Source of the DNA: Campylobacterales bacterium | GTDB lineage: Bacteria; Campylobacterota; Campylobacteria; Campylobacterales; Sulfurimonadaceae | NCBI GenBank assembly: GCA_026390075.1 | Contig: JAPLGP010000052.1 | Span: 1-64,000 of the forward strand | Reading direction: 5' to 3' | Length of the DNA stretch: 64,000 nucleotides | Part shown: positions 8,776-48,297 of the stretch, in pieces | How positions within the stretch are numbered: the stretch's first letter is position 1 | How the letters are laid out: the number at the start of each line of letters is the position of its first letter | Made by a program: the position numbers and the translations under genes | Notes under the pieces: model-generated | Seen by the model: the letters and a program-made list of their open reading frames with translations, nothing else | Told to the model about the DNA's origin: nothing | Database searches by the model: none

Positions 8776-8975
8776 GATAGATTATGTAATCAAAATAAAA
8801 TCAAGATATTGAGGGAAAACTCAAGAGTATGGCATGTGGAAATATAATTAGAACCCAAATTACTAGATAAAAGAATGCTTGTAAATTGCTAAAGCCATAA
8901 GAAAATCTCGTAGCAAATGTGTTTTTGTTAAGAAAGCGTTAAGAAAGAGTTTAGTTATCGTTAATAGCTGTAGTC

Positions 8976-13818: not shown

Positions 13819-13901
13819 GGCATGTGCAAATAAGATTTGGCATGTGGAAATTTTGGAATGTGAAGAGAGAGGTTGGCATGTGGAAATGATGGCATGTGGA
13901 A
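13819..13901. repeat. Cluster of GGCATGTGGAA words
   Basis: Three exact 11-mers (13839, 13875, 13891) and one near copy, GGCATGTGCAA at 13819, lie in the same orientation within 83 bases. The spacing is irregular (20, 36 and 16 bases). A further weak match, GGAATGTGAA, lies at about 13855. They occupy the gap between the GGDEF gene (stop at 13907) and the malic enzyme gene. Confidence 0.9.
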
Positions 13902-24638: not shown

Positions 24639-26408
24639 ATGAATAATAATCCTATCACACTCAAGACTGTACTCAAACTTATTTTAGAAAACAAACCAGC
24701 ACTTATTTATGGGCAGATAGTCACGCTTTTAGCGATACTTGTGAGCATCCCTGTTCCTTTAATGCTTCCGATTATGGTCGATGAAATTCTTTTACATAAA
24801 CCCTCTTATTTTGTGCATAGCATAAACTTTTTTGTGGGTGAAACAACTGCTTTTTACTATATCGCTCTGGTTACATTGGCAGTTATTTTTTTACGACTTA
24901 TCTACTATTTTCTTGGTGTAGTTATCACAAAAATTTTCACTAAAATCTCAAAATATGTTACCTTTATGATACGAAAAAGGCTGATTGAGCATCTGAAAAT
25001 ATCCTCTATGAATGAGTATGAAACACTTGGTAGCGGTGCAATTACTGCGAATCTTATCACAGATGTCAATACACTTGATAGTTTTATTATCACAGGCGTG
25101 AGTCGCTTTGTATCCTCTGTTTTAACGCTTGTTGGGGTTGGAATTGTAATGATTATGATAGACCCAATTTTAGGGATTTTGATACTTATTGTGCAACCGC
25201 TCATTATGCTTATCAGTAAAAAGATGTCAGCAACTGTGGGTCGATTAAAAAAAGAAGAAAACGAGGCGATTGAAAAGTTTCAAAATGATGTTGGGGAAAC
25301 TCTTGAGCTTTTTGGGCAAATCAAAGCAAGTAACAAGGAAAACTACTTTTTTTCTCAAGCAATAATTCACGCACAAGAGATTCAAAGAAGTTCAAACGAG
25401 TTTGGATATAAAAGTATCGCTTATGAAAAACTCTCCTACACAATCTTTTTGATTATGTTTGAAATTATCCGTGCAGCTGGACTTCTTTTAGTCGCGTACA
25501 GTGATTTGAGCATAGGTATGATGTTTGCGATGTTTGGCTACATCTGGTTTATTATGACGCCCGTTCAAGATATACTCTCCATTCAGTACAGCTACTCTTC
25601 TGCGATGAATGCACTTAAGAGAATCAATAAAATCCTTTCACTCAAAACAGAACACACGGGAGAAAAAACTCTCACAGCACGGCATGTGGATATCTCTCTA
25701 AAAAATTTAAGTTTTTTCTATAATGAGGGTAAAAATATACTTGAAGATATCTCTTTAGATATAAAATCAGGCTCTAAAATAGCACTCATTGGTGCGAGTG
25801 GAAGTGGCAAAACAACTCTGGCACAAGTGGTTTCAGGCTTTTATGAAAAAACAAGTGGCGTGGCAACTTACAACAACATCGACATAGAGGTTTTAGACAA
25901 AAGCGCACTTAGAGAGAAAATATTTTTGGTTTTACAGATGCCGATACTTTTCAACTCTACGCTTAGATTTAATATCACGATGGGTGATGAAACAATAAAC
26001 GATGCACAAATTTATGAAGCTCTCAGCATCGCGCAACTCAGTGAGATGGTAGAAGCGATGGAAAATGGACTTGACACCATAGTAGGTCGTCATGGGGTCA
26101 GACTCTCAGGCGGACAAAGACAACGCCTAAGTATCGCTCGAATGATTATCGCCAATCCTAGTGTTGTAATATTTGACGAATCCACTTCAGCACTCGATGT
26201 TCACACAGAAGCAAAACTTTTTAAAACTATTACACCACTTCTCAAAGATAAAACTGTCATAACCATAGCCCATAGGCTCAGTACAGTAAAAAATGCGGAT
26301 ATTATTTATGTACTCGATGGCGGAAAAATTGTTCAAAGAGGAACACATACCCAGTTAGAAGATGAGCAGGGACACTATATGGAGTTTATTAAAAAGCAGT
26401 TGATTTAG
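24639..26408 (+). CDS. ABC exporter, fused permease-ATPase (MsbA-like)
   Basis: A 589-residue half-transporter. A six-span membrane domain (about 1-320) is followed by an ATPase domain with Walker A GASGSGKTT, signature LSGGQRQRLS, Walker B VVIFDESTSALD and the H-loop AHRLS. Such proteins export lipids, peptides or drugs as homodimers; the substrate cannot be read from sequence. One GGCATGTGG word (25681) is read as Arg-His-Val-Asp at the start of the ATPase domain. The gene ends 7 bases before an inverted pair of words. Confidence 0.93.
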   Translation: MNNNPITLKTVLKLILENKPALIYGQIVTLLAILVSIPVPLMLPIMVDEILLHKPSYFVHSINFFVGETTAFYYIALVTLAVIFLRLIYYFLGVVITKIFTKISKYVTFMIRKRLIEHLKISSMNEYETLGSGAITANLITDVNTLDSFIITGVSRFVSSVLTLVGVGIVMIMIDPILGILILIVQPLIMLISKKMSATVGRLKKEENEAIEKFQNDVGETLELFGQIKASNKENYFFSQAIIHAQEIQRSSNEFGYKSIAYEKLSYTIFLIMFEIIRAAGLLLVAYSDLSIGMMFAMFGYIWFIMTPVQDILSIQYSYSSAMNALKRINKILSLKTEHTGEKTLTARHVDISLKNLSFFYNEGKNILEDISLDIKSGSKIALIGASGSGKTTLAQVVSGFYEKTSGVATYNNIDIEVLDKSALREKIFLVLQMPILFNSTLRFNITMGDETINDAQIYEALSIAQLSEMVEAMENGLDTIVGRHGVRLSGGQRQRLSIARMIIANPSVVIFDESTSALDVHTEAKLFKTITPLLKDKTVITIAHRLSTVKNADIIYVLDGGKIVQRGTHTQLEDEQGHYMEFIKKQLI

Positions 26409-26415
26409 AAATTAC

Positions 26416-26444
26416 GGCATGTGGAAATTTTATTTCCACATGCC
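26416..26444. terminator. Inverted pair of GGCATGTGGAA words
   Basis: GGCATGTGGAAA and TTTCCACATGCC form a perfect 12-bp stem with a 5-base loop (TTTTA). It lies 7 bases after the ABC exporter stop and 12 bases before the stop of the convergent GH17-like gene. It could terminate transcription from both sides. Confidence 0.75.
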
Positions 26445-26456: not shown

Positions 26457-28211
26457 TTAGTTCAAATACTTTTTTTCTTTTGTAAGAAGATGAAGTACCA
26501 CTACAAAAGCGATTGAACCAAAGAATGTATTAAACATCACAAGTGCGAAAACAGTTAAAAACAGAGCAACAAGAGAGATGATTTTTTTGTTTAAAAGTAG
26601 GGCAACTCCTGCACTTATCATAGCAATATAACCCAATGTTTGAAGATACACATACATCGCAAGAGAATTTCTTAGCTTACATATAATAGAGTCTAAAGAT
26701 GTACTACACGCTACTTCAAAATAACTGTTTCTTAAAATTCCATAGCGGATAGCAACAAAAAAAGCTGAAAATGCAAGCATAATAAGTGCAAGATTTTTAA
26801 GTTCGCTATATGCTATTTTTTTACTGCCCTTATATAAAATAGAAGCAAATCCTAATGCAATTACAATCCATACATCTGAAAAAAGATTGAGAAATCCTTC
26901 ATTTACTAAAATAGTAATTGATGATATTACAAGAATGACAAAAGATGCTTTTTCAAATTTTCCAAAGTTCAAACTCTCAAACGCTCCTCTATAAAGCCAC
27001 AAGTATGAGATGATTGAAATAAGAAAAACATAGACCTCAAAATTTCGATATCTTCCTTCAAGGGCGAGTGTAATCGTTGTTATGAGAACAAAAACTAAAG
27101 AGAGATAAAACGATAGCATAAGAGATGCGTCCATGCTAAATATTTTTTGCTTTAAAATCATGCCTATATTTAGGATATTTGGCTTCTTCTCATGTGCGAT
27201 GTGATAAAGCACAGCCGAGTAGATAAACAGATTTGTAAGACTCACAAGAACTGCCCAAACAAGTTCGACACTCGTTCTCACGGTTACATAATACTGCTCC
27301 ATTTGAAGCATAAATAACAGAGCAAAAAGAGCGTTTACAACACCAAACAGTAAGATATTTTTAGTTTGAATTTTTCTATTTTTCAACATCAAAGAGAAGG
27401 CAACAACAAGAAAAATCGAGCCAAGAGCTAAAGGTTTATAATTTGGAAAGTTTGAAACATCCCCGCTGAAAACATGTTTATCCATTCTATCTTTATCAAA
27501 GAGTCCCCAAAAGCCACCTACTGCACCTTCACTTACTCTTTTCCAAGGCTGGTCAAACGCTTCTATGATGTTGTAACTCCACCCTTTTTCCTCGGCTAAC
27601 TTTACAAAATCTCTGATATAAATTGCTTGATTTATTTTGCTAGGAAGTGCATCTTCACGCATTCTTCCCTCTGAGGGCCAACCTGTTTCGCCTATTACAA
27701 TATTTTTATCTTTGAGTTTTACTTCAACTTCTTCTCTTATATTTCGCACATGTTCTATCGCACTACTTATATTCATAGTGTCATCTTCCCAGTAAGGCAA
27801 GATATGAATCGTTGCAAAATCTGTAACTTTTTGTATTTCAGGATTTCTAAGCCAAAATTCCCAAACATCTGCGTAGGTAACCTGAATATTTGGAAGAGCT
27901 TTTTTTACATCTTTGATATAACCAGCCAATACTGCATCTGTAACCTCTCCACGAAGAAGCGTTTCATTTCCTACAATAATTGCTTTTACTATATCTTGAT
28001 TTTCTGTTGCAAGTTTGATGAGAGCTTTTAATTCTATCTCTGTTAAAGTTTTATCACTACTGACCCAACCGCCCATAAACATTTTCATGCCTTTTTCTCT
28101 TGCTATTTTTGGAACAGATTCTAGTCCCATAACTGAGTATGTTCGGATACAATCTGTATATTTTGCAAGGAGTGTTAAATCCTCTCTTACTTGATTTTCA
28201 GAAATTACCAT
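26457..28211 (-). CDS. GH17-like glucanase/transglycosylase with membrane domain
   Basis: A 584-residue protein. Residues 1-230 form a glycoside hydrolase 17-like barrel: VGNETLL with the acid/base Glu, and IGETGWPS with the nucleophile Glu. The rest has about nine hydrophobic spans. Bacterial proteins of this layout act on beta-1,3-glucans or cyclic glucans. The ATG at 28211 is unlikely to be the true start: the frame continues upstream to 28253 with DQSPFLFAEG, which resembles the normal region before this point, but it has no start codon and ends at a stop beside an A8 run. A lost N-terminus or frameshift is likely. Confidence 0.8.
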   Translation of the reverse strand: MVISENQVREDLTLLAKYTDCIRTYSVMGLESVPKIAREKGMKMFMGGWVSSDKTLTEIELKALIKLATENQDIVKAIIVGNETLLRGEVTDAVLAGYIKDVKKALPNIQVTYADVWEFWLRNPEIQKVTDFATIHILPYWEDDTMNISSAIEHVRNIREEVEVKLKDKNIVIGETGWPSEGRMREDALPSKINQAIYIRDFVKLAEEKGWSYNIIEAFDQPWKRVSEGAVGGFWGLFDKDRMDKHVFSGDVSNFPNYKPLALGSIFLVVAFSLMLKNRKIQTKNILLFGVVNALFALLFMLQMEQYYVTVRTSVELVWAVLVSLTNLFIYSAVLYHIAHEKKPNILNIGMILKQKIFSMDASLMLSFYLSLVFVLITTITLALEGRYRNFEVYVFLISIISYLWLYRGAFESLNFGKFEKASFVILVISSITILVNEGFLNLFSDVWIVIALGFASILYKGSKKIAYSELKNLALIMLAFSAFFVAIRYGILRNSYFEVACSTSLDSIICKLRNSLAMYVYLQTLGYIAMISAGVALLLNKKIISLVALFLTVFALVMFNTFFGSIAFVVVLHLLTKEKKYLN

Positions 28212-29043: not shown

Positions 29044-29118
29044 TACTATTTTGTTAATTCTTTTATATATTTCTATTTTCATGTATAATAACTTCAATAA
29101 ACATAGGAGTTTTGTAAA

Positions 29119-29391
29119 ATGAATGATGTAAAACAAAAGTGCGAAAAAATTTTAACTCAAGAAGGAATAGACATAAATTCAGAGATAGATTTTGATGTCA
29201 ACGGAAAAGTGCACACACTTAGTTTTCTCTATATTCTTGAAACTTTTATGCTCTCCTCAGATGAGTCACAGCTTGTTTTTTTGGCAGCTTTAGAAAAGGC
29301 ACTTGATGCAAAAGACATGGGTGTTGATAGGTTTTTTGAGGGGATGGGTCAGCTTTTACTCATGACACATTTATCAGACAAAATAGAGTAG
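29119..29391 (+). CDS. Hypothetical acidic protein, 90 residues
   Basis: I do not recognise this family. It is a small soluble acidic protein, mostly helical by composition, with no signal peptide, cysteine motif or membrane span (one Cys at residue 8). An AGGAG site lies about 10 bases before the ATG. It is bounded by the tRNA promoter upstream and an inverted word pair 4 bases after the stop, so it is a single-gene unit. Confidence 0.75.
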   Translation: MNDVKQKCEKILTQEGIDINSEIDFDVNGKVHTLSFLYILETFMLSSDESQLVFLAALEKALDAKDMGVDRFFEGMGQLLLMTHLSDKIE

Positions 29392-29395: not shown

Positions 29396-29422
29396 GGCAT
29401 GTGGAAATCCTTTCCACATGCC
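29396..29422. terminator. Inverted pair of GGCATGTGGAA words
   Basis: GGCATGTGGAAA and TTTCCACATGCC form a 12-bp stem with a 3-base loop (TCC). It lies 4 bases after the hypothetical gene stop and 24 bases before the stop of the convergent thiG. A bidirectional terminator is likely. Confidence 0.75.
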
Positions 29423-29446: not shown

Positions 29447-30226
29447 TTAAAACTGTATCATTCCATCTATTGGCGAACTTGCAGTCGCATACGGTCGTTT
29501 TGGAATTCTTCCTGAGAGGTAGCTCATGCGTCCCGCGATTACTGCATGTTTCATAGCTTCCGCCATTATCATCGGATTTTGCGCACAAGCGATTGCCGTG
29601 TTTGTTAAAACCCCATGCGCACCAAGTTCCATCGCATACGCCGCGTCACTCGCACAGCCGATTCCCGCATCTACGATGACAGGCACACTTACAGCTTCAC
29701 GAATGAAAACGATGTTATACGGGTTTTGAATCCCTAAACCACTTCCAATAGGTGCAGCGAGAGGCATGATGGCGTGTGCTCCAGCGTCTTCTAGGCGTTT
29801 TGCCATAATCGGGTCATCCGAAGTATATGCCATGATTGTAAAGCCCTCTTTTGCCAAAATAGCACACGCTTTTATAGTCTCCAAAACATCAGGATAAAGC
29901 GTTTTTTGCGTGTCACCGATAACTTCGAGTTTTATCAAATCGATTCCCGTCGCTTCACGCGTGAGACGAAAAGTCGTGATTGCCTCTTCAGCGGTTGTGC
30001 ATCCTGCTGAGTTTGGCAAAAATTTTACATTTGTGCCTTTAAATGTATCACGAAGATTTTCTTGGTCTGGATTTGTGATGTTCAAACGACGAACAGCAAC
30101 CGTGATAAGCTCACTTCCCGAAGCAAGTGTTGCCAACCTTGTTGTCTCAAAATCTTTATATTTTCCACTTCCAACTATGAGGCGAGAGCCTAGTTCATAT
30201 TTTCCGATTTTTAAAATGTTATCCAT
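29447..30226 (-). CDS. thiG: Thiazole synthase ThiG
   Basis: A 259-residue TIM-barrel enzyme that builds the thiazole ring of thiamine from deoxyxylulose phosphate, dehydroglycine and ThiS thiocarboxylate. It shows [13 protein letters not shown] at the N-terminus, the LIKLEVIGD lysine that forms the Schiff base, and the phosphate-binding [12 protein letters not shown]. No other thi gene lies next to it, and there is no visible TPP riboswitch: the upstream gap is filled by a MITE-like repeat. Confidence 0.95.
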
Positions 30227-30407: not shown

Positions 30408-31832
30408 TTATAACTTTGCAATGCCATTAATCAAATCATAAGGTGTCAGCGAAAAATCTGCCCCTTTATATCCACATGCCAACTTTGCGTGAGCGAGTGA
30501 ACCATTTTTTGCAGCTTCGAGAGGTGTGTAACCTTGTGCTAAAAGTGAGCCTATCAAGCCACTCAAAACATCACCACTTCCACCTTTTGCCAAAGCGGAT
30601 GTGCCATGTGGATTTATAAAAAATTCATTTGCACATGCCACGATAACATTTGCACCTTTGAGTAAAAGCACGGCATGTGGAAATTTTTGAGTAAACAGTT
30701 CTACATATTTAAAACGATTTTTTTGCAAAACTTCTACACTTATGTCTGCGAGTTCAGTACGCTTTAAAAGTGCCACAAATTCTTTGGCATGTGGAGTTAA
30801 AACAACATTTTCTCTTTTTAAAATCTCTGTAAGTATCGGTACCCCAAGGGCATTTCCTCGTTCCTCACAGCACATGTGGAAAATATCCGCATCGGCTATG
30901 AGAGGAAATGAATTGTCTAAAAATTTCTTCAATTCTACATTGCTAAACTCATCGCCCAAACCCATTCCACATGCCAAGGCAGTTGTATTTTTTGGAACTT
31001 CGGTAGAATACATTATTGTCTGTGGAACTTGCACCGCATCATGCACGACAAGCGTCACCAAACCAGCTCCAAATCTAAGTGCAGTCTCAGCACTCATAAT
31101 ACTCGCACCCGATTTATTTCCACAAGCAAGAGCCAGATGTCCGAAACTTCCCTTATGAGAATCTTTTTTAGTTCTATGTGGAAGTTTCAAATCCTCCAAA
31201 TCAAGCAAATTCCAAGAGCTTTGCGTCTCATAAATCGCTCGAGAGATACCTAACTCTATCACTTCGATTTTACCAACAAACTCTTTTGCCTCGTCAAGAA
31301 ACATTCGTTTTTTTAAAGCACCCATAGTGAGCGTTACATCACTCACAAAACATTCATCGACACATTCACCATTTTGTTTTAAACCTGATGGAATATCGCA
31401 TGCAATTTTAAAAGCTTTTAGAGAATTTAGCTTTTTCATTGTAATTTTTAATGCATCATCAAACGCGCCATCAAAGCCAGTTCCAACAACTGCATCCACC
31501 AAAACATCACAATCCATAAGCTCCGTACAAATTTTTACACCAACACTTTTGGCTCTTTTGTCTTGCAAAATCGCCATCTCTGATTTTGGTTGTTTGACAT
31601 AAAAAAGTGAAACGGCATACTCGCCATGGAGCATTCTTCCACATGCCAAACCATCTGCACCATTGTTGCCACTTCCACATGCCAAGATAATTTTTGAGCC
31701 TTTTGCAAAATTTTTACGGATAAAATTCGCCATTCCATGTGCGGCATTTTCCATCAAAATATCTTCGCTGAGTGCAAATTTTTCGTAGCATCTTTTGTCT
31801 AAGGATGCCACTTCATCAAAAAGTTTTTGCAT
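30408..31832 (-). CDS. nnr: Bifunctional NAD(P)HX epimerase/dehydratase
   Basis: A 474-residue repair enzyme. The N-terminal epimerase domain has GSGNNGADGLACGRML; the C-terminal ADP-dependent dehydratase domain has GGSGDVLSGLIGSLLAQG. It restores damaged, hydrated NADH and NADPH. It holds six exact GGCATGTGG-family words, the densest gene in the window, and several fall on family motifs read as Ala-Cys-Gly (LACG). One-mismatch copies at 30602 and 30631 bring the density higher. It follows the ATPase gene after 2 bases. Confidence 0.93.
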   Translation of the reverse strand: MQKLFDEVASLDKRCYEKFALSEDILMENAAHGMANFIRKNFAKGSKIILACGSGNNGADGLACGRMLHGEYAVSLFYVKQPKSEMAILQDKRAKSVGVKICTELMDCDVLVDAVVGTGFDGAFDDALKITMKKLNSLKAFKIACDIPSGLKQNGECVDECFVSDVTLTMGALKKRMFLDEAKEFVGKIEVIELGISRAIYETQSSWNLLDLEDLKLPHRTKKDSHKGSFGHLALACGNKSGASIMSAETALRFGAGLVTLVVHDAVQVPQTIMYSTEVPKNTTALACGMGLGDEFSNVELKKFLDNSFPLIADADIFHMCCEERGNALGVPILTEILKRENVVLTPHAKEFVALLKRTELADISVEVLQKNRFKYVELFTQKFPHAVLLLKGANVIVACANEFFINPHGTSALAKGGSGDVLSGLIGSLLAQGYTPLEAAKNGSLAHAKLACGYKGADFSLTPYDLINGIAKL

Positions 31833-33217: not shown

Positions 33218-33375
33218 TTGTAATCCTTTTTTTAGTTTAAAAAATTGTACTCAAAATTTGGTAACTAAATACATTCAATTTATAGTTCTTAACCATTTCC
33301 ACATGCCAAAGTAGATATACTTCTGTCTCACAAATCTTAAAATTATTAAGATAGACGGAATTACAAGGAAACAGT

Positions 33376-34224
33376 ATGAAACAAAACGAATATTTAGAAC
33401 TAGGACTTATCAATTGCTTACGCGTTGACAGACACACGCCACATGGCATATTTTTAATGGCACTCGATGGAAATGATGTGCTTTTGCCACAAGCGTATGT
33501 AACCGAGAGTATGCTTGAAGATAACTTGCTTGAAGTCTTTTTATACACAGACTCAGAAGACAGACTTATCGCTACTACTTTAAAGCCACATGCCATGCTT
33601 GATGGATTTGCACTTTTTGAAGTTGTTGATGTTGCTCCTTTTGGTGCATTTGTAAACTGGGGACTTTTAAAAGATTTAATGGTGCCTAATATGTTCCAAA
33701 AAACACCCTTCAAAATAGGCGATAAAAGATTTCTCAAAGTGGTTTATGATGAGCGAACACACCGCCTTGTTGGAACTGAAAAAATCGGCGATATTTTTGA
33801 AAAACGCGTCAAAGGTCTTTCTCCAAACAAAGAGGTGAAAATCATCATCCTTGCTAAAACTCCGCTTGGATTTAAATGTTTGGTTGAAGATAAATATGAA
33901 GGACTCATTTATCACAATGAAATATTTGAAAATATTGCGCTTGGCGATACAAAAACTGCTTTTGTAAAAACTATCAGAAAAGATGGAAATATTGACCTAA
34001 GTTTACGAAAATCTGGAACAAAAACGAGTTCTGGCACAGGCGATATCGTTCTTGATTTACTCCAAGAGAACAATGGAATTATGCCATATAACTATAAAAG
34101 CGATCCAGAACTCATTAGAGGCGTTTTTGGCTTGAGTAAAAAAGAGTTTAAACGCTCACTCACAGCTTTGCAAGATGCTGGTAAGATAGAAGTAAAAGAT
34201 ACTGGAATCTATATAAAAGGGTAA
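33376..34224 (+). CDS. cvfB: CvfB/YitL-family S1 RNA-binding protein
   Basis: A 282-residue protein with S1-like repeats (VAPFGAFVNWGLLKDLMVP is the clearest S1 strand pair) and a C-terminal winged helix (YNYKSDPELIRGVFGLSKKEFKRSL). CvfB proteins bind RNA and affect virulence and RNA turnover in Firmicutes. One GGCATGTGG-family word is read as Pro-His-Ala (33586). The upstream divergent gap holds another at 33299. Confidence 0.88.
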   Translation: MKQNEYLELGLINCLRVDRHTPHGIFLMALDGNDVLLPQAYVTESMLEDNLLEVFLYTDSEDRLIATTLKPHAMLDGFALFEVVDVAPFGAFVNWGLLKDLMVPNMFQKTPFKIGDKRFLKVVYDERTHRLVGTEKIGDIFEKRVKGLSPNKEVKIIILAKTPLGFKCLVEDKYEGLIYHNEIFENIALGDTKTAFVKTIRKDGNIDLSLRKSGTKTSSGTGDIVLDLLQENNGIMPYNYKSDPELIRGVFGLSKKEFKRSLTALQDAGKIEVKDTGIYIKG

Positions 34225-34524: not shown

Positions 34525-35742
34525 ATGAAAAAAAGTTATTTAGAGTCACATCCAGATGAAAACGGTTTTTTTGGAAAATTTGGGGGTTCATTTATACCGC
34601 CTGTTTTAGAACAGCCGTTTGCTGACATCACAAAAGCATACATAGAACTTAAAAATTCACCTCTCTTTATAGAAGAACTCAAATATGTTAGAAAACACTA
34701 TCAAGGTCGCCCTACTCCAATATCCTTCGCAAAAAATCTTACTAAACATTGCGGTGGTGCAAAAATCTATCTCAAACGAGAAGATTTAAACCATACGGGT
34801 GCACACAAACTTAACCACTGTATGGCTGAAGTAATTCTGGCTAAATATTTAGGAAAAACAAAAGTTATTGCCGAAACTGGTGCTGGACAACATGGAGTAG
34901 CGCTTGCGACTGCTGCTGCGTATTTTGGGCTTGAGTGTGAAATCCACATGGGCGAAGTTGATATCGCAAAAGAGCACCCCAATGTTGTGAGAATGAAGAT
35001 TTTAGGTGCTAAAGTTATTCCTGCGACACATGGACTCAGAACACTTAAGGAAGCGGTTGATAGTGCATTTGAGAGTTATGTTCCTCAGGCAGAGAGTGCA
35101 ATATATTGTATCGGTTCTGTTGTTGGACCACATCCATTTCCAATGATGGTGAGAGATTTTCAGTCTGTCATCGGTTTTGAATCAAAAGAGCAATTTTTGG
35201 AACATGAAAACTCTCTTCCTGACAATATAGTAGCTTGTGTTGGCGGAGGCTCAAACGCTATGGGAATTTTTTCTGCTTTTATAGAAGAGGAAAATATTAA
35301 TCTTTATGGTGTTGAACCGATGGGCAGAGGTGACAAAATAGGCGAACATGCGGCAACTCTCACTTACGGGACAGAGGGAATAATGCATGGTTTTAATTCT
35401 ATCATGCTCAAAGATGAAAATGGAGAAGCAGCTCCTGTTTACTCCATAGGCTCTGGCATTGATTACCCATCTGTTGGACCTGAACACGCCTACCTCAAAG
35501 AGAGTGGAAGAACCAAAGTTGGTCTTTGTAACGATGAAGAGGCAATAGATGCTTTTTACAAACTCTCGCAACTTGAAGGAATCATACCTGCACTTGAATC
35601 TGCACATGCCGTTGCATTTGCTATGAAACTTGCAAAAACTTTGGGTAAAGATAAAACTATTTTAGTAAATCTAAGTGGTAGAGGCGATAAAGATATAGAT
35701 TTTGTAATTGAGAATTATCCTATTCCAAACGCTAAGTTTTAG
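34525..35742 (+). CDS. trpB: Tryptophan synthase beta chain, stand-alone
   Basis: A 405-residue PLP enzyme that condenses indole and serine. The PLP lysine is in [17 protein letters not shown], the catalytic Glu in AETGAGQHG, and the phosphate loop in GGGSNAMG. Residues after the lysine ([12 protein letters not shown]) and [12 protein letters not shown] differ from the usual TNNALGQ-type and VDVERQ-type stretches, so it is a divergent TrpB. No trpA or other trp gene is adjacent. It may be a salvage or second copy. Confidence 0.9.
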
Positions 35743-35765: not shown

Positions 35766-35787
35766 GGCATGTGGGTTTCCACATGCC
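35766..35787. terminator. Inverted pair of GGCATGTGG words
   Basis: GGCATGTGG and CCACATGCC form a 9-bp stem around GTTT, 23 bases after the trpB stop. Only the right copy keeps the AA/TT extension. It separates trpB from the downstream hemerythrin-PAS gene, on the same strand. Confidence 0.7.
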
Positions 35788-35896
35788 GTAATCTTCTTCT
35801 TACATTGAAACAAATTAAAAATTCATTCATATTGCTTTAAATCAAAATATAAAAACATAAAAAGCATATAATTCCTCATTATTATAAAGGAATACA

Positions 35897-36880
35897 ATGA
35901 GTGAATTTTTAGGTCAAAGCACATCTTCAAGCCTACCAGAAGGTCATCCAGTTAGAGTTTATCTGGATGAAAACCAATTAATCAGAGAATTAATATTCAA
36001 AATAAACAGCATAAATATAGAAGAAAAAAATGAAGAGTTTACAAAACTCTTCTCAAAACTTTGTCTTGTTGAAAAACATTTTGCCAGAAAAGAAAATCAA
36101 CTTTTCCCCTACCTAGAAAAATATGGTTGGACAAGCCCTAGCCAAAATATGTGGGCTTTTCATGATCAAATCAGAGATGAAATCAAAGCTGTTCATGGTG
36201 CTATAAAATCTCAAAATATACTCAGCATAAGTCAAAATTTACACCGAGTTTTTGAAAGTTTAGAGCATATTTTACAAGTTGAAGAGGGAAGACTTTTACC
36301 AAGAGCTTTTAGCATGCTAAGCAGTGATGATTGGGAAGAGATGAGAGCTGGAGATGAAGAGATAGGCTGGATGTTTGATGAAGCACCTCCTGCTTTTCCT
36401 GCTATAAGTGAACAAGACTATGTACACCCAAGTCAAGATACAAAAAGAAGAAAACTCCCTTTCTCCCTTGATAATAGAATCAAGCTTGATGAGGGTTATT
36501 TGCTCCCTGATCAGATTAACTGGCTTCTTAAATTTATGCCCGTTGATATCACTTATGTGGATGAAAACGATATAGTCCTATTTTACAACCGTGGTGACAA
36601 CAGAGTATTTCCAAGAAGTGCAGGTATTATAGGTAGAGAAGTGAAGTTTTGTCATCCTCCTAAAAGCGTTGATCAAGTTTTGTTGATACTAAGAGAGTTT
36701 AAAGCTGGAAGAAGAGATGAAGCAGAATTTTGGATAACATTTAAAGGTAAGTTTATTCATATCAGATACTTTGCTATTAGAGATGATGAGGGTGCATACA
36801 AAGGGGTAATAGAAGTAAGCCAAGATGTTACACATATCAGAAGTCTTGAAGGTCAACAAAGATTACTTGACTGGGAATAA
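35897..36880 (+). CDS. Hemerythrin-PAS sensor protein (DUF438-like)
   Basis: A 327-residue soluble protein. The N-terminal half (about 15-150) is a hemerythrin-like four-helix bundle with iron-ligand-type residues in EGHPV, EKHFARKENQLFP, HDQI and EHILQVEEGRLLP. The C-terminal part is a PAS domain (about 215-315). The arrangement matches DUF438-type proteins, proposed oxygen, NO or redox sensors. There is no kinase or cyclase domain, so the output partner is unknown. A GNRA-loop hairpin follows the stop. Confidence 0.85.
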   Translation: MSEFLGQSTSSSLPEGHPVRVYLDENQLIRELIFKINSINIEEKNEEFTKLFSKLCLVEKHFARKENQLFPYLEKYGWTSPSQNMWAFHDQIRDEIKAVHGAIKSQNILSISQNLHRVFESLEHILQVEEGRLLPRAFSMLSSDDWEEMRAGDEEIGWMFDEAPPAFPAISEQDYVHPSQDTKRRKLPFSLDNRIKLDEGYLLPDQINWLLKFMPVDITYVDENDIVLFYNRGDNRVFPRSAGIIGREVKFCHPPKSVDQVLLILREFKAGRRDEAEFWITFKGKFIHIRYFAIRDDEGAYKGVIEVSQDVTHIRSLEGQQRLLDWE

Positions 36881-36910
36881 ATGAAAATTTATCTAATTTT
36901 TGATAAAAAT

Positions 36911-36926
36911 CTCAGCGAAAGCTGAG
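36911..36926 (+). terminator. GNRA-loop hairpin after hemerythrin-PAS gene
   Basis: CTCAGC and GCTGAG close a GAAA loop 30 bases after the stop. The T-run after it is poor, so it is a possible terminator or RNA-stabilising hairpin. The remaining gap to 37177 shows a TATAAT at 37131-37136 before the chorismate mutase gene and no other gene. Confidence 0.5.
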
Positions 36927-37177
36927 ATAACGAAGTATGTTCTTTATGAATGAGGTAAAAGACCATACAAGGAGAATCGTAGTAGTATTGTATTTCTTTT
37001 TTGTTACAAATGTGTTAATAGAGTTGTATCTTTTTTTTGCTAATATATATAATTAAATACAAATTTGAGACATCTCTCTTTAAAAAATTTGTTTGAACTT
37101 GATAAAAATAAATTAAGACTCAAATGCAGTTATAATTTGGATAAAATAGACAAATTCAAGCAAACTAAGGAATAAAT

Positions 37178-37471
37178 ATGAAAGTTTACAACTCATTAGA
37201 AGAAGTTAGACATGATATCGATATACTCGATACTAAACTTGTTGATATCATAGCAGAGAGAAGTCACTTAATACGCCAAGTTGCTAAGTTTAAGAATAGT
37301 GTTGATGAAGTAAAAGCTGAAGACAGAATTGAATTTATTTTGCAAAAAGCTAGACACCAAGCCATAGAACTTGGATTATCTCCAAATTTAATATCTGAAC
37401 TGTTTACGATTATGATTAATGAAATGGTTGAAACAGAAATATCAGAATTTAGAAATAAAGAAGCATTTTAG
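37178..37471 (+). CDS. AroQ-type chorismate mutase
   Basis: A 97-residue helical protein with the AroQ pattern: EVRHDIDILDTKLVDIIAER at the N-terminus with the active-site Arg, then Lys and Arg residues in AKFKN and AEDR, and a final helix with MINEMVETE. It would convert chorismate to prephenate for Phe and Tyr synthesis. There is no fused prephenate dehydratase. It is convergent with infA and shares a terminator hairpin with it. Confidence 0.85.
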   Translation: MKVYNSLEEVRHDIDILDTKLVDIIAERSHLIRQVAKFKNSVDEVKAEDRIEFILQKARHQAIELGLSPNLISELFTIMINEMVETEISEFRNKEAF

Positions 37472-37473
37472 AT

Positions 37474-37507
37474 AAATAAAAAAGAGGAGATAAACCTCTT
37501 TTTATTT
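37474..37507. terminator. Bidirectional terminator, chorismate mutase/infA
   Basis: AAATAAAAAAGAGG pairs with CCTCTTTTTATTT around AGATAAA, so both strands end in a T-rich run. The infA stop codon (37502-37504) lies inside the right arm. It closes the ribosomal operon on the minus strand. Confidence 0.8.
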
Positions 37508-37720
37508 ATAACGATAAGTGATTCGTCCCTTATCAAGACTGTAGGGTGTTAGCTCAAGTTTAACACGGTCACCTGGTAATATTTTAATATAGTGCATACG
37601 CATTTTTCCTGCTATATGACATAAAATAATATGTTTATTTTCTAATTCAACACGAAATGTTGCATTAGGTAAAGCCTCTATAATCTTGCCATCAACTTCG
37701 ATAACATCCGATTTAGCCAT
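37502..37720 (-). CDS. infA: Translation initiation factor IF-1
   Basis: A 72-residue OB-fold protein that blocks the ribosomal A site during initiation. Recognisable stretches are [21 protein letters not shown] and the [20 protein letters not shown] end. It is the last gene of the operon, 18 bases after map. rpmJ and the rpsM-rpsK-rpsD-rpoA-rplQ group that often follow are not here. Confidence 0.97.
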
Positions 37721-37738
37721 TATATATTCCTTACTTCT

Positions 37739-38497
37739 CTATGCAAGAGATAAAATTTCAGCTTTACCGTTGATAACTGCAACAGTATGCTCATAGTGTG
37801 AACCGCGCAAACCATCGGCACTAACAACATCCCACTTATTTTCTAAAATAATTGGTTTTGAATCTTTTTGACAAATCATAGGTTCAAGACAAAAAACCAT
37901 TCCGTTTTTAATCTTTGGACCAGCTTTAGCATTTTTTCCATCTAAATAGTTTGGTATTTCAGGCTCTTCATGAGGTTTTTTTCCTATTCCATGCCCGCAA
38001 AAACTATGAAGTGGAACAAAACCTCTTGCTCTTATAAAATTTTCCATAAGAAGAGAGAGCTCTTTAAATCTCATTCCCTCTTTTATCTCTCCTATTGCAT
38101 AATAAAGAGTATCTTTAGCGCATGCAATTAAATCTTCATCTTCTTGACTTATCTTTCCAACCGCCACTGTTATAGCAGCATCACCAAAATATCCATCAAA
38201 TTCAGTTCCAATGTCATATCCTATAACATCACCTTCTTTGAGTTTATAATCAGTTGGAATGCCATGAATAATTACTTGATTGAGTGAAGTACATACAGCA
38301 TTAGGAAAGCCATAAAGACCTTTAAAAGAGGGCTTAGCACCTTGACTTAGAATATAATTCTCAGCCATGGCATCAAGCTCATTTAAAGAGATCCCTACTT
38401 TCGTATTTACACGAAGAAGTTCTAAAGCACCGCCAACAATTTTGTTAGCAGCTCTTAGTTTTTTGATTTCATCATTTTTTCTAAGCGCAATCGCCAT
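37739..38497 (-). CDS. map: Methionine aminopeptidase type I
   Basis: A 252-residue metallo-enzyme that removes the initiator Met from new proteins. The metal ligands are seen in GYDIGTEFDGYFGDAA (two Asp), HGIGKKPHEEPEIP (His, Glu) and the final HYEHT Glu. It starts 2 bases after the secY stop, as usual in this operon type. Confidence 0.96.
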   Translation of the reverse strand: MAIALRKNDEIKKLRAANKIVGGALELLRVNTKVGISLNELDAMAENYILSQGAKPSFKGLYGFPNAVCTSLNQVIIHGIPTDYKLKEGDVIGYDIGTEFDGYFGDAAITVAVGKISQEDEDLIACAKDTLYYAIGEIKEGMRFKELSLLMENFIRARGFVPLHSFCGHGIGKKPHEEPEIPNYLDGKNAKAGPKIKNGMVFCLEPMICQKDSKPIILENKWDVVSADGLRGSHYEHTVAVINGKAEILSLA

Positions 38498-38499
38498 TT

Positions 38500-39762
38500 T
38501 TATAGACCAACCGCACTTAGTGTTTCATATTTGCTCATATAAATCTGAGCTTCTATCTTTCTCATAGTATCAAGTGCAACTTGAACAACGATTAAAACCG
38601 CTGTTCCTCCAAAAAAGAATGGTACACCCATTCCCTTGATAATCATAAATGGCAGTGTTGCAACAAGACCAAGGTAAAGAGCTCCCGTAAAAGTTAATCT
38701 ACTAGCAGTTTCATTTAAGAAATCTTTTGTAGCTTCACCTGTACGAATACCTGGAATAAATCCACCTTGTCTTTTTAAATTATCGGCTATATCTTTTGCA
38801 TTAAATGTAATTGATGCATAAAAGAATGCAAAAAATACAACAAAAACAAATGTCAGAAAGTTAAAAAAGTAGCTATTTGGATGTAAAAAGTCAGCAATAC
38901 CTTGAATAGTAGGGTTAGTACTACTCGATAAAACAGTCATAGGAAACATCAATATAGCACTAGCAAATATAACTGGAATTACACCAGCTAAATTCACTTT
39001 GATAGGAATATAGTTCATTACTCTTTTGTTTTGGTTTTGCATCATAGTCTTCTTCGCATAAGTAATTGGAATACGACGCTCACCTAATTCAACATAAATT
39101 ATCACAGCAATAGTACCTAATATAAGTGCTAATATGGCAATTACAGTAAGAAAGCCCATTGCACCAGTATTGACCATGGTTACAGTTTGACCTATAGCAC
39201 TTGGAATTGCTGAAACTATTCCAGCAAAGATAATAAGTGAAATACCATTACCTATTCCGCTCTGCGTAATTTGCTCACCTATCCACATTAATAACATAGT
39301 TCCTGCTAGCATTGAAACAGCAGAAAGGAGAATAAATGTGTTGTGATCAGCTAATATTGCGCTATTTCCACTTGGTCCTGTTAAACTTTGAAGTCCAACA
39401 CTTACACCAATTGCTTGAATAAGAGTAATAACAATAGTCGCATAACGAATAATTTGCATATACTTTACCATACCATCACGCTCTTTTTTCATTTGTCCTA
39501 AAGTAGGAAATGTAGCAGCTAAAAGCTCCATAATAATAGAAGCCGTGATATAAGGCATAATTCCAAGTGATATAATAGAAAGTCGCTCAACAGCTTTACC
39601 ACTAAACATATTAAATAAGCCTAGAGCATCTGCTTGATGTGAATTGAAGAATGAAGCTATAACAGCAGTATCTACGCCTGGAACTGGCACATAAGCCAGT
39701 AGGCGGTAGATAAATAAAAACCCTATTGTAATAAGTATCTTATTAACTAGATTTTTATTCAC
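38500..39762 (-). CDS. secY: Protein translocase channel SecY
   Basis: A 420-residue, ten-span inner membrane channel for secreted and membrane proteins. YRLLAYVPVPGVD in the first span, the plug and GIMPYITASIIMELL, and the cytoplasmic loop with QGGFIPGIRTGE are typical. It is 2 bases after rplO. Confidence 0.97.
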   Translation of the reverse strand: MNKNLVNKILITIGFLFIYRLLAYVPVPGVDTAVIASFFNSHQADALGLFNMFSGKAVERLSIISLGIMPYITASIIMELLAATFPTLGQMKKERDGMVKYMQIIRYATIVITLIQAIGVSVGLQSLTGPSGNSAILADHNTFILLSAVSMLAGTMLLMWIGEQITQSGIGNGISLIIFAGIVSAIPSAIGQTVTMVNTGAMGFLTVIAILALILGTIAVIIYVELGERRIPITYAKKTMMQNQNKRVMNYIPIKVNLAGVIPVIFASAILMFPMTVLSSSTNPTIQGIADFLHPNSYFFNFLTFVFVVFFAFFYASITFNAKDIADNLKRQGGFIPGIRTGEATKDFLNETASRLTFTGALYLGLVATLPFMIIKGMGVPFFFGGTAVLIVVQVALDTMRKIEAQIYMSKYETLSAVGL

Positions 39763-39764
39763 GA

Positions 39765-40163
39765 TTAGTTACCAGTTGTAGTAATGTTTTCGTCTTTAAT
39801 TTTTGATGCTAAATCTTTCGCAGTAGCACCAACTAATTTAACTTTAGTAACCATAGAACTGATTTTATGAACACTACGGATTGATTCCATAGTAATTTCA
39901 ACTAACTCAGCAATAGCACCTATTTTTTCAACATTGATTACATAAGGTTTTACAACACGAGAAGTAAATCCAATTTTTGGCAATCTTCTTGCAAGTGGAG
40001 TTTGTCCACCTTCAAAGTTTCTTTTTCTTGAACTACCAGAACGAGCAGTTTGACCTTTTCCACCACGAGTAGAAGTCTTACCCATACCAGAACCTTGTCC
40101 ACGACCTACTCTTTTACGAGAAGATGTTGAACCTTCAGCAGGCGTTAAATTTTCAATACCCAT
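39765..40163 (-). CDS. rplO: 50S ribosomal protein L15
   Basis: A 132-residue protein with the glycine/arginine-rich N-terminus [20 protein letters not shown]. It follows rpsE after only 3 bases, where many bacteria have rpmD (L30), so L30 is absent from this operon. Confidence 0.97.
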
Positions 40164-40166
40164 TTT

Positions 40167-40610
40167 CTATCCTTTTATACGAGACAATGCTTCAATTGTA
40201 GCACGCACGAGTGTGTTTGGATTGTTAGAACCAATTGATTTGGTAAGAATATCTTTAACACCAGCAAGCTCAAGTACATGACGAGCAGCTCCACCAGAGA
40301 TAACACCAGTACCTTCTGATGCTGGCTTTAGTAAAACACGACTAGCGTTGTATTTGTGCTCAATATCATGTGCAATTGTTGAACCTTTAATTTTAACAGT
40401 AGTTAAATTTTTAAAAGCGTTATCAACTGCTTTACGAATAGCATCTGGAACTTCTTTAGCTTTACCAACACCATATCCAACAGTACCTTTTTTGTTACCT
40501 ACAACTATAAGTGCAGTAAAACGAAAACGACGACCACCTTTTACAACTTTAGTAACACGACCTATATTTACGATTGATTCTTCAAAATCTTCTCTATTGA
40601 TTTCCATCAT
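40167..40610 (-). CDS. rpsE: 30S ribosomal protein S5
   Basis: A 147-residue protein. [21 protein letters not shown] is the S5 double-stranded-RNA-binding signature. It helps decoding accuracy and helicase activity at the mRNA entry. It lies 5 bases after rplR. Confidence 0.97.
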
Positions 40611-40615
40611 AACCC

Positions 40616-40972
40616 CTAGAACTTAATTTCGTTAGCACGAAGTGCGTCACCAAATGCAGCAATTACGCCGTGGTATTGGTAACCATTACGGTCAAATACT
40701 ATTTCAGAAATATTAGCAGCTTTAAGTGTAGCAGCAAATGCAACACCTAGCGCAGTTGCACCTTCTCTGTTTGATTTATGACCAGTTGACTTTGAGTGAA
40801 GAGCAGCTACTGTTGTAGCAGTTACATCATCAATAGCTTGCACACTTATATAACGATTTGAACGAAATACAGAAACACGAGGAAGTGAAGCACAACCAGA
40901 TATTTTTGCACGAATACGACGCTTACGCTTTAAGCGATTAGCAACTTTGCTTTTTAATACTTTAGCATTCAT
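40616..40972 (-). CDS. rplR: 50S ribosomal protein L18
   Basis: A 118-residue 5S rRNA-binding protein with a basic N-terminus ([14 protein letters not shown]), followed by [20 protein letters not shown]. It lies 13 bases after rplF. Confidence 0.97.
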
Positions 40973-40985
40973 TTATACTTCCCCC

Positions 40986-41522
40986 TTATTTCTTAGAAGT
41001 TTTACCGGCTTTACGCGCGATATGCTCTTCCATGTATTTAACACCTTTACCTTTGTAAGGCTCTGGTGGACGGAAAGAACGAATTTTAGCAGCAACTTGA
41101 CCAAGAGCTTGTTTGTCATGACTTTTAATAGTAATAACATTTTTCTCTACAGTAGCTTCCATACTTTCTGGCAATTCAAAATTAATATCATGTGAAAAAC
41201 CTAGTTGTAAGTTAAGCACACTTCCATTTACTGCAGCGCGGTAACCAACACCATTAATTTCCAATTGTTTTGTATAACCAGTAATCAAACCAGCTACTAT
41301 ATTTGCAGCTAAGGCACGGTATGTACCCCAAAAAGCTCTATGAGTTTTTGCATCTGACAAAGTGCTAAAAGTTAAAGTGCTTCCATCAATTGTAAAAGCA
41401 ACATTTCCTTTTGTATCTAAATCAACACTATTGCTACCTTTAGCAAAAGTTATAACATTTCCATTTGAACTAATATTAACATCAGCAGTACATTCTACTG
41501 GTAATTTTCCAATTCTTGACAT
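40986..41522 (-). CDS. rplF: 50S ribosomal protein L6
   Basis: A 178-residue protein with the signature RSFRPPEPYKGKGVKY near the C-terminus. It binds 23S rRNA near the factor site. It lies 9 bases after rpsH. Confidence 0.97.
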   Translation of the reverse strand: MSRIGKLPVECTADVNISSNGNVITFAKGSNSVDLDTKGNVAFTIDGSTLTFSTLSDAKTHRAFWGTYRALAANIVAGLITGYTKQLEINGVGYRAAVNGSVLNLQLGFSHDINFELPESMEATVEKNVITIKSHDKQALGQVAAKIRSFRPPEPYKGKGVKYMEEHIARKAGKTSKK

Positions 41523-41531
41523 GTTATCTCC

Positions 41532-41927
41532 CTACCAAACCGTACACATAACTTCGCCACCAATGCCAAGCTCATACGCTTTGTCATTTGGTAGTACGCC
41601 ATGTGATGTACTTACTATAATTGTTCCATAACCATTTTTAAAACGCTTAATTTCTTCTTTGCCTTTGTAAACACGACGACCAGGTTTAGAAATTCTTTTT
41701 AGCTCATTAATTACAGTTTTACCTTGTTCATTGTACTTAAGCACAACTTTTATAGTTTTCTTAACGCCATCTTCTACTACATTGCAGCTTTCAAGATAAC
41801 CTTTGTCCACTAAGATATTAGCTACTGCTTCAACACTTTTAGAGTGAACCAAAGTAGTAACAGGTAATCTTCTCATACCAGCATTACGAACGCGAGTTAA
41901 AGCATCCGATACTAAATCATTTATCAT
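41532..41927 (-). CDS. rpsH: 30S ribosomal protein S8
   Basis: A 131-residue protein with the C-terminal signature [20 protein letters not shown]. It is a central 16S rRNA binder and autogenous repressor of the spc operon in E. coli. The 47-base gap before it is the longest in this operon. Confidence 0.97.
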
Positions 41928-41974
41928 TTATTTTCCTTGTTAACAGTTAGGAGTTTCAGGTGGAAGGCTTGTGC

Positions 41975-42160
41975 CTACCAGCTTGACTTTCTAACGCCTG
42001 GGATTAATCCCTCATTTGCCATTTTTCTAAAGCAAACACGACAGATACCGAAATCACGAATAACAGAGTGTGGACGACCACAAATCTGACAACGAGTATA
42101 ACCACGAACTGTAAATTTTGGAGTTCGTGCCGCCTTAGCGATCATTGACTTTTTAGCCAT
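41975..42160 (-). CDS. rpsN: 30S ribosomal protein S14, zinc-binding type
   Basis: A 61-residue short S14 with four zinc ligands, CQIC and CRVC, 12 residues apart (C+ form). A zinc-free copy for zinc starvation is not seen in the window. It overlaps the rplE stop by one base. Confidence 0.97.
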
Positions 42161-42705
42161 TAGTTGCTCCCTTTAGTAAAAGGCATACCCATTTTCTCTA
42201 AAAGAGCAAATCCAGCCTTATCAGAATCAGCAGTTGTAACAACTGTAATATTCATACCATGAATTTGCATGATTGAGTCATAACTAATCTCTGGAAAAAT
42301 CAATTGTTCTTGTAATCCAAAGTTATAATTTCCACGACCATCAAAACCATTTCTAGGAACACCACGGAAATCTTTTACACGAGGAAGTGCAATAGAAATC
42401 AAACGGTCTAAAAAGTTGTACATGTTTTCACCACGAAGTGTAACACGAATACCAACTGGCATACCTTCACGAACTTTAAAACCTGCAACAGATTTTTTAG
42501 CTATTACAGTACTTGCTTTTTGACCAGCAATTGCAGTAATAGTGTCTTCAATATTTTTTATAAGCTTATTGTCTTTCATTGCAAAACCAGCACCAACAGA
42601 TATTACTATCTTATCAAATGAAGGAACTTGCATAGGATTTTTAATTCCTAAGTCAGCTTGTAATTCAGATTTTAAACCTAAATATTTTTCTTTAAAACGA
42701 GCCAT
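42160..42705 (-). CDS. rplE: 50S ribosomal protein L5
   Basis: A 181-residue 5S rRNA-binding protein. It contains [11 protein letters not shown], the [31 protein letters not shown] region and the [13 protein letters not shown] end motif. It lies 4 bases after rplX. Confidence 0.97.
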
Positions 42706-42709
42706 CTAA

Positions 42710-42940
42710 TTATGCCTCCACTTTTCGTACATTTGAAACATCTATAGGCATTTCTTTATTTAAAAAGCCACCTTTAGTGTTGTCTTCAGTTGGCTTAATA
42801 GCTTTTTTAGCTATTTTACAACCCTCTACGATTACCTTGTTTTTCTTAGGCATAACTGCTAATACAGTTGCCTTTGTTCCACGGTCATCTCCAGCGATAA
42901 TTTCTACAGTATCGCCTTTTTTGAAATTAAACTTTGCCAT
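42710..42940 (-). CDS. rplX: 50S ribosomal protein L24
   Basis: A 76-residue KOW-domain protein ([21 protein letters not shown]) that starts 50S assembly. It is at the short end of the family. It overlaps rplN by one base. Confidence 0.96.
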
Positions 42941-43308
42941 TAAACAACCTCCGGCGCAAGAGATACAATCTTCATAAATCCAGCGTAACGAACTTCACGA
43001 CCAACAGGTCCGAAGATACGAGTACCGATAGGCTCTCTCTTATCATCAAGTATAACTGCTGCATTATCATCAAAACGAATAAGAGAACCGTTTTCACGCT
43101 GAATCTCTTTTCTTGTTCTAACGATAACAGCTTTTACTACTTTACCTTTTTTAACTTTAGAAGTTGGAGCCGCTTTTTTTACAGAAGCAATAATTACATC
43201 ACCAACTGTAGCATAACGACGCTTTGAACCGCCAAGTACCTTAATACACATAATCTCTTTTGCACCTGTATTATCAGCTACATTTAAACGAGTAAAACCT
43301 TGTATCAT
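42940..43308 (-). CDS. rplN: 50S ribosomal protein L14
   Basis: A 122-residue protein starting [18 protein letters not shown] and ending with the [19 protein letters not shown] signature. It contacts 23S rRNA and bridges the subunits. It overlaps both neighbours by one base. Confidence 0.97.
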
Positions 43309-43559
43309 TATTCTGCTCCTGATACAACTGTTTTAAGTCTAAAAGATTTAGTCTTAGAAAGTGGACGACATTCGATTGCTATAATCTGGTCTCCAACTTT
43401 TACTTCATTTCGTTCATCATGTACTAAGTACTTTTTGAAACGCTTTACAACTTTATGGTAACGAGGGTGCATTACACGACGCTCTACCAGTAAAGATACT
43501 GTTTTATCGCCTGCAATTTTAACTACACTACCCTGAATTTCACGCTTATGTGTCATCAT
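43308..43559 (-). CDS. rpsQ: 30S ribosomal protein S17
   Basis: An 83-residue OB-fold protein with the motif [23 protein letters not shown] and [16 protein letters not shown]. It is an early 16S rRNA binder. It lies 6 bases after rpmC. Confidence 0.97.
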
Positions 43560-43565
43560 CAGCCC

Positions 43566-43754
43566 CTAGTTTGATACTGCAGTAAGTGCAGTATTGATTC
43601 TAGCAATGTCTTTTTTTGCAACACTTAATTCATTAGTGTTAGTCAATTGCATCATCTTTTGTTTAATTTTTAAAGTAAAAAGTTCAGTCTTTTTTGCTTT
43701 AAGCATAGCTTGAAGTTCAGCTGAATTTTTATCTGCTAAATCAGAATATTTCAT
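43566..43754 (-). CDS. rpmC: 50S ribosomal protein L29
   Basis: A 62-residue helical hairpin protein ([20 protein letters not shown] start; [11 protein letters not shown] end). It overlaps the rplP coding end by 14 bases, the longest overlap in the operon. Confidence 0.95.
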
Positions 43755-44166
43755 TGTTCATCTCCGCAGTGATTATTTTCGTTTTGAATGGCAACTTGTG
43801 CATTGCAAGAGTTAATGCTTCACGAGCAAGTTCCTCAGGAACACCAGCCATTTCAAAAATTATACGACCTGGCTTGATATTCATTACCCATTGATCAACT
43901 GAGCCCTTACCCTTACCCATACGAGTTTCAAGAGGTTTTGCAGTTAATGGTTTAGCAGGGAATACACGAATCCAAATCTTACCATTTCTTTTTATGTGAC
44001 GAGTTGCAGTAATACGAGCCGATTCAATCTGACGAGAATTGATACGACCTGCTTCTACAGCTTTAAAAGCAATGTCACCAAAAGCTAACTTATAGCCACT
44101 ACGAGCATAACCACGGTTACGCCCTTTCATAACTTTACGATATTTTGTTCTTTTTGGCATCAACAT
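43741..44166 (-). CDS. rplP: 50S ribosomal protein L16
   Basis: A 141-residue protein starting [20 protein letters not shown], with [13 protein letters not shown] and the loop that reaches the tRNA sites. It lies 2 bases after rpsC. Confidence 0.97.
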
Positions 44167-44168
44167 AA

Positions 44169-44879
44169 TTAATCAGCCTTTCTCGGAGCACGCTTCGGAC
44201 GACGCGTCTCTTTATTTGTATTTTCTTCTTTTACTTCTGCAGGAATACCCTTAGTAAGCACTTCACCTTTAAATATCCATACTTTTACACCAATACAACC
44301 ATAAGTAGTATGAGCTTCTGCAAAACCATAATCGATTTTAGCGCGTAATGTATGAAGTGGAACACGACCTTCTAAGTACCATTCAGTACGAGCCATCTCT
44401 GCTCCGCCTAAACGACCAGAAACAGATACTTTAATACCTTTAGCACCAGAGCGTTGTGCACCTTGCATAACTTTCTTCATAGCACGACGAAATGCAACAC
44501 GACGCTCAAGTTGAGTAGCTACATTTTCAGCAACAAGCTGTGCTGAAGTTTGAGCTTTTTTCTCTTCTTTAATATTTACAGATACATCTTTACCTATAAG
44601 ATTTTGAAGAGAAGTTTTAATCTTCTCAATATCTGCACCTTTTTTACCAATAATGATACCAGGACGAGCAGCAACGATAGTTACACGAAGTCTCTTAACT
44701 GTTCTTTCTATAATGATGTTAGCAACACCAGCATAATAAAGTTCTTTTTTTAGATATGTACGAATCTTGTGATCTTCACCTAAAGCTGCTGGTGCAGTTT
44801 TAAAATTAGGAAACCAACGGCTTTCCCAATTTCTGTTGATACCAAGACGTAAACCAATAGGATTAACTTTTTGACCCAT
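44169..44879 (-). CDS. rpsC: 30S ribosomal protein S3
   Basis: A 236-residue protein with a KH domain ([16 protein letters not shown]) and the C-terminal signature [24 protein letters not shown]. It is part of the mRNA entry helicase. The C-terminal tail is basic (KRAPRKAD). Confidence 0.97.
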
Positions 44880-44880
44880 A

Positions 44881-45198: not shown

Positions 45199-45200
45199 GA

Positions 45201-45479: not shown

Positions 45480-45481
45480 TA

Positions 45482-46327: not shown

Positions 46328-46328
46328 A

Positions 46329-47799: not shown

Positions 47800-47809
47800 G
47801 ACCCTCTCC

Positions 47810-48121: not shown

Positions 48122-48176
48122 GTTTTTCCTTCTAAAGAACTCGTCAGGTCTAGCCTAACTATTTTAAGGGACGCGA

Positions 48177-48205: not shown

Positions 48206-48297
48206 GGTTTTAGGGCACAAAAATAGAAATATATTAAAATATACTTCCTTTTATAAAGGAAATGATAAAATATGAAAAAGATTTTTATGGAGAAATC

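Follow-up and report, generated by a model that had tools for sequence, protein, structure and literature searches.

A 9-bp word that is very probably a self-DNA tag of a marine sulfur bacterium, and its inverted pairs at gene ends

The word GGCATGTGG, found in many copies in the window (the whole stretch of DNA analysed here, 64 kb in length), is very probably a self-DNA tag of a marine sulfur bacterium. According to the mechanism that we propose, GGCATGTGG, extended to tTtGGCATGTGGAaaT, would be a DNA uptake sequence read by the natural-transformation machinery, and biased uptake together with recombination would have spread it through the genome. Two facing copies between genes would give a strong symmetric hairpin in the transcript, and such pairs would be kept at gene ends, where the hairpin may define or protect the mRNA 3' end on either strand. 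It could do so by blocking 3'-5' exonucleases once the transcript has been released further downstream, by Rho or otherwise, or, alternatively, it could act as a U-independent pause or roadblock. An uptake tag combined with a U-less hairpin role at 3' ends is, as a joint reading, the best explanation of the data, and one that we consider probable.

The abundance of the word is striking. The 2.403-Mb genome contains 1,427 copies, 724 on one strand and 703 on the other, while the reversed word, used as a control, occurs twice in the whole genome. The 64-kb window holds 44 words against 0.26 expected, a count that is not due to chance. The core is nearly invariant, as replacement of any central letter leaves 0-1 copies compared with 193 exact ones in 464 kb, and in the same 464 kb it is surrounded by a weaker flank, TTY before and A(A/T).T after.

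Single words were located by a word scan of the window. Those on the + strand lie at 655-663, 1642-1650, 2271-2279, 5281-5289, 7085-7093, 8831-8839, 13839-13847, 13875-13883 with its direct neighbour 13891-13899, 25681-25689, 30672-30680, 30786-30794, 53182-53190, 54799-54807, 54987-54995, 60450-60458 and 61094-61102. Those on the - strand lie at 407-415, 559-567, 1513-1521, 1546-1554, 2759-2767, 5337-5345, 30472-30480, 30967-30975, 31639-31647, 31675-31683, 33299-33307, 33586-33594, 49159-49167, 50551-50559, 52903-52911, 55037-55045, 59857-59865, 60074-60082 and 60175-60183. The ribosomal protein operon region (window positions 35788-49158) is free of the word over 13.4 kb, the longest word-free stretch found. 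Two other word-free segments have a low GC content: L052 11314-20000, with a Zot-domain gene and a filamentous-phage-like character, and L150 12530-20000, with a KAP NTPase and a C5 methylase. From these two segments, acquired DNA seems to come without the word.

Beside the single words, the window contains four inverted pairs, all of the stem type, defined as GGCATGTGG, a spacer of 0-25 nt and CCACATGCC. A preliminary description of this DNA had placed them 4 to 23 bases past a stop codon, two of them between convergent genes, and both statements are exact (gene calls throughout come from a simple caller written for the analysis). Pair 1 (26416-26444, GGCATGTGG-AAATTTTATTT-CCACATGCC) lies 7 nt past the stop of a + strand gene whose sequence signature suggests an ABC transporter ATPase (24639-26408), in the convergent gap shared with a - strand gene (26457-28211). 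Pair 2 (29396-29422, GGCATGTGG-AAATCCTTT-CCACATGCC) is found 4 nt past the stop of a short + strand ORF (29118-29391), also in a convergent gap, and faces a - strand gene that reads as a putative ThiG (29447-30226). The remaining two occupy tandem gaps: pair 3 (35766-35787, GGCATGTGG-GTTT-CCACATGCC), 23 nt past the stop of a + strand gene reading as a putative TrpB (34525-35742), and pair 4 (62040-62065, GGCATGTGG-AACTTATT-CCACATGCC), 8 nt past the stop of a - strand gene (62074-62580).

RNA folding predicts stable hairpins for all four pairs (-17.7 to -24.3 kcal/mol, z -4.7 to -7.3), and no shuffled sequence folds equally well. Stems measure 13, 13, 10 and 11 bp for pairs 1 to 4, with loops of 3-4 nt, and pair 1 read on the - strand gives a 17-bp stem; the stems of 9-12 bp and loops of 3-5 bases given earlier need to be corrected to these values. 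A stable GC-rich hairpin shortly past a stop codon, as looked for in a terminator, is present.

Taking the whole genome, 52 stem-type and 45 reverse-type pairs were counted, with about 5.5 of each expected from the word counts. Among the 37 reverse-type pairs examined, 14 form a 20-bp near-palindrome with a 2-bp centre. Pairs in the same direction are not enriched (9 against 6 expected in a sample). Since the placement sample was chosen to contain the pairs and serves for context only, enrichment is quoted here from the whole-genome counts. The inverted pairs are clearly not placed at random, in line with the preliminary description: of the 86 that were classified, 79 (92%) are intergenic, compared with 99 of 570 unpaired words (p 4e-43). 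Convergent gaps hold 36 of the 76 scored pairs but make up 15% of the spacer length (p 3e-11), while divergent gaps hold only 3 of the 76 though they represent 27% of it (p 2e-7). Of the 37 pairs in tandem gaps, 33 are closer to the upstream stop than to the next start, with median distances of 12 and 103 nt, respectively. This is how an element of the 3' end should be placed.

Intrinsic (Rho-independent) terminators need a U-tract, and it is on this point that the hairpins depart from them. In the 5 nt after the hairpin we found a mean of 0.61 T and 3.0 A for stem-type pairs, and of 1.28 T and 3.25 A for reverse-type pairs, where 1.76 T would be expected. Over 8 nt the values are 1.8 T (stem-type) and 2.3 T (reverse-type) against 2.6 at random positions, and 5 T or more occur in none or 2% of the pairs. 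Elsewhere in this genome, too, hairpins that precede a T-tract show no clear excess on the sense strand in tandem gaps (13 sense, 8 antisense). A few T-tailed hairpins are present in the window, and U-tract termination is not wholly absent. The flank accounts for this pattern: with CTT before and AAAT after the word, A-U pairs lengthen the stem and no U-tract results in either arrangement, and as neither yields a U-tail, both are about equally frequent.

It is thus unlikely that the pairs are ordinary intrinsic terminators of the TransTermHP type (hairpin plus U-tract) in which uptake words were reused as stems. Such a role would agree with their location 2-25 nt past stops, the convergent bias and the strong stems, and Neisseria and Pasteurellaceae show this coupling as well (PMC1852404), but the depletion of T past both pair types makes canonical termination by these hairpins unlikely. 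Lacking a U-tract, the hairpin would most likely be an exonuclease block or a U-independent pause, and 3'-end protection or U-independent termination would fit the data better. The earlier proposal that the pairs are used in the same way as terminators therefore stands for place and shape, the sites being terminator-like, and is probably wrong on the classical mechanism, as neither arrangement has a T-tail.

The word was then followed in 135 species genomes from a single genus, either Sulfurimonas or one close to it (the closest named homologues of one window protein belong to Sulfurimonas and other Campylobacterota). Its use is patchy, with 411-1,427 copies of the 9-mer in eleven genomes, 50-226 in eight and 0-27 in the rest. 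On a tree of the secY region most strong users fall in one part, yet users do not form one clade (AU p 4e-11), and three genomes with 165-226 copies (G149, G096 and G143) branch between G000 and G067, both of which have about 1,400 copies. Near-copies of the word exceed exact words 1.5- to 3-fold in the low-count lineages G096, G149 and G061, whereas exact words exceed near-copies in G000, G066, G067 and the pooled G081/G082/G093, the ratio being 0.1-0.4 in most samples of full users. The excess presents a picture of relics left after maintenance was lost. The near-copy ratio alone is no proof of decay, given that it is also high in the full-user sample of G084/86, where the cause is a dialect difference: in G084/G086/G119 the word variant is often not followed by AA, and in G084/86 the word often lacks the following A. 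Seven genomes of the genus without GGCATGTGG (G054, G049, G022, G109, G007, G013 and G020) show an excess of another 9-mer, CCTCACGCA (169-327 copies, strands balanced). Nearly all examined copies are genic, no inverted pairs were seen (L072, L085-L087), and CCTCACGCA is possibly a second uptake word.

Hairpins appear to outlive the word in some of these lineages, the positional conservation of pairs between users having been checked on sampled stretches. The homologue of the gene at 34525-35742, which precedes pair 3, is followed by a reverse-type pair in G082 and by a broken pair in G093. At the same 3' end G149 has AGCATGTGG-ATTT-CTACATGCT, in which both words are lost while 9 of 9 positions still pair, the outer one through a change on both sides and one as G-U. 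In G096, CTACATGCC-AT-GGCATGTAG, also changed on both sides, is located 27 nt past a stop. A worn pair is seen in G061, at 7 nt from a stop. In the genome of the window, compensating changes were found in none of 25 imperfect intergenic pairs, as would follow from selection on the word itself in this genome. Two layers of selection would fit these observations, one on the word as long as it serves for uptake and one on the hairpin at gene ends. With two to three decayed hairpins, below what statistics can address, the pairing kept with both arms changed is a lead, not proof.

These hairpins also bear on the idea that GGCATGTGG is an uptake tag whose pairs sit at gene ends only because spacers past stops tolerate change, the hairpin itself being inert. 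Single intergenic words do occur near stops too, and intergenic DNA is permissive. Nevertheless, permissive spacers alone would not restrict the enrichment to inverted pairs, with none among direct pairs, nor leave the divergent gaps, equally non-coding, nearly empty, nor keep pairing while both arms change in lineages that lost the words. We regard an inert hairpin as quite unlikely, and return to an uptake tag with a function at the 3' end.

Regarding the uptake tag itself, the sequence evidence was consistent. In a 1.18-Mb sample, 63% of the words lie inside genes, in either sense, and the strand balance seen genome-wide also holds within each 20-kb stretch. Genic word sites aligned to homologues from non-user genomes showed gaps in 2 of 123 alignments (1.6% in the control), and identity at word sites was 0.46 against 0.72 at control sites, the homologues coming from genomes without the word. 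Being gapless and at less conserved places, genic words arose by substitution and not by insertion; the Haemophilus USS was likewise made by substitution (PMC1626085). A signal of replication, segregation or recombination (such as Chi, KOPS or parS) or a methylation site would also be an abundant, conserved short word, but we find this very improbable and have rejected the Chi/KOPS and methylation readings: the balance of the strands tells that GGCATGTGG is not a polar chromosome motif, it is not palindromic, almost every other species of the genus lacks it, and inverted pairs at gene ends would be unexpected. Least credible of all, and also rejected, is the view that a transposase (RAYT/MITE) spread the word as a mobile or REP-like repeat, for in spite of the high copy number and the hairpin pairs, the repeat unit is only about 15 bp, with flanks that carry no information past about 5 bp and no longer unit inserted in spacers, and most words are single and genic, aligning without gaps to homologues that lack them.

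An uptake system requires competence genes, and the genome encodes ComEC, DprA and a T2SSE ATPase (type II secretion/type IV pilus), together with a GspG-type pseudopilin and several N-methylated pilins. A regular-expression search of half the genome gave no useful match for ComEA, RecA, a secretin or Rho; the presence of Rho is assumed from Campylobacterota in general. The receptor of a DUS or USS would be a dedicated minor pilin, ComP, with PpdA/ComN proposed, and none of nine pilins tested here matched the ComP-type domain (PF16732). A 224-aa candidate pilin (G000:C48:229-900) is found in users and non-users alike, in nearly every genome of the genus, and its presence alone does not track word use; its gene and the homologues sit at a contig edge in many assemblies, a position suggesting that a repeat, such as an rRNA operon, follows. 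A FimT-like pilin is not supported as the dialect determinant, since its homologues, at 41-60% identity, are spread over nearly the whole genus and do not track word use. Together, strand balance, the invariant core, origin by substitution, patchy dialects, relic words and the competence genes strongly support uptake as the probable role of GGCATGTGG at the level of sequence.

Several known systems resemble the one described here. Enterobacterial REP/BIME elements are hairpins that follow stop codons and lack a U-tract, and a protective role at mRNA 3' ends is ascribed to them. The word pairs share with them the U-less hairpin after stop codons but differ in that REP/BIME are longer mobile repeats confined to spacers, while here the arms are copies of a mostly genic word. 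The USS of Haemophilus and Pasteurellaceae (AAGTGCGGT) shares a 9-bp invariant core with an AT-rich flank, a density near 1 copy per 1.7 kb, equal use of the two strands, a substitution origin, dialects by clade and, close to gene ends, pairs in both the +- and the -+ arrangement (PMC1626085, PMC1852404). In contrast, GGCATGTGG is a different word in a different phylum (Campylobacterota), and its use is patchy even within one genus. Its flank polarity is also reversed, so that its pairs have no T-tail; in Neisseria and Haemophilus the extended word begins with A, hence the +- pair obtains an A-tail and a T-tail from the word's own flank, and this arrangement is favoured (PMC1852404).

The Neisseria DUS (GCCGTCTGAA) and its dialects are alike in their hundreds to thousands of copies, the species dialects and the inverted pairs at gene ends (PMC3630211). 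There, however, the +- arrangement dominates with its T-tail (226 to 5 over the other arrangement in N. meningitidis; PMC1852404), as opposed to 52 to 45 and no T-tail here, and the ComP domain was not seen in the nine pilins mentioned above. As uptake words are on record as being tied to gene ends in both Neisseria and Pasteurellaceae, the analogy drawn at the outset does strengthen the uptake reading (PMC1852404, PMC3630211).

The open-licence literature searched contained nothing relevant on uptake sequences in Campylobacterota, Epsilonproteobacteria or Sulfurimonas, where an earlier report is possible, and no uptake-sequence system outside Neisseriaceae and Pasteurellaceae. A 2026 survey of the terminators of thousands of genomes found uptake words only in these two families (PMC13020248); being confined to predicted intrinsic terminators, it could have let U-less word pairs escape. 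We give about even chances to a broader proposal, namely a third independent DUS system, in a new phylum (Campylobacterota), with several mutually exclusive words (GGCATGTGG, GGCATGTGG[G/A] and perhaps CCTCACGCA) that species of one genus would have acquired and lost, and with U-less 3'-end hairpins that would outlive the word by compensation. The hairpins of word pairs at gene ends recall those of Neisseria and Haemophilus, although the phylum is unrelated and the run of U that a normal terminator requires is missing. As close species of this genus have the complete word, its relics or none at all, they allow direct tests of how specificity of uptake comes and goes, of which protein determines it, and of whether selection maintains the hairpins built from uptake words for a benefit of their own.

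Three further repeats were observed along the way. Several non-user genomes have a strong, mostly genic excess of the palindrome TACATGTA(A/G) (loci L062 and L091-L093 in G041, L071 and L097 in G052, L063 and L081-L084 in G043, as well as L176 and L216). In 3' regions of the genome of the window and in samples of G061, genes are repeatedly followed by a REP-like hairpin in the spacer, CTCGCAATGACGGTCATTGCGAG, which has GATTGCTTCGTC as neighbours. Finally, CTCTTGAACC is present in 12 copies in 21 kb of L221 (Arcobacter sp. NORP36), as a repeat or another over-represented word.
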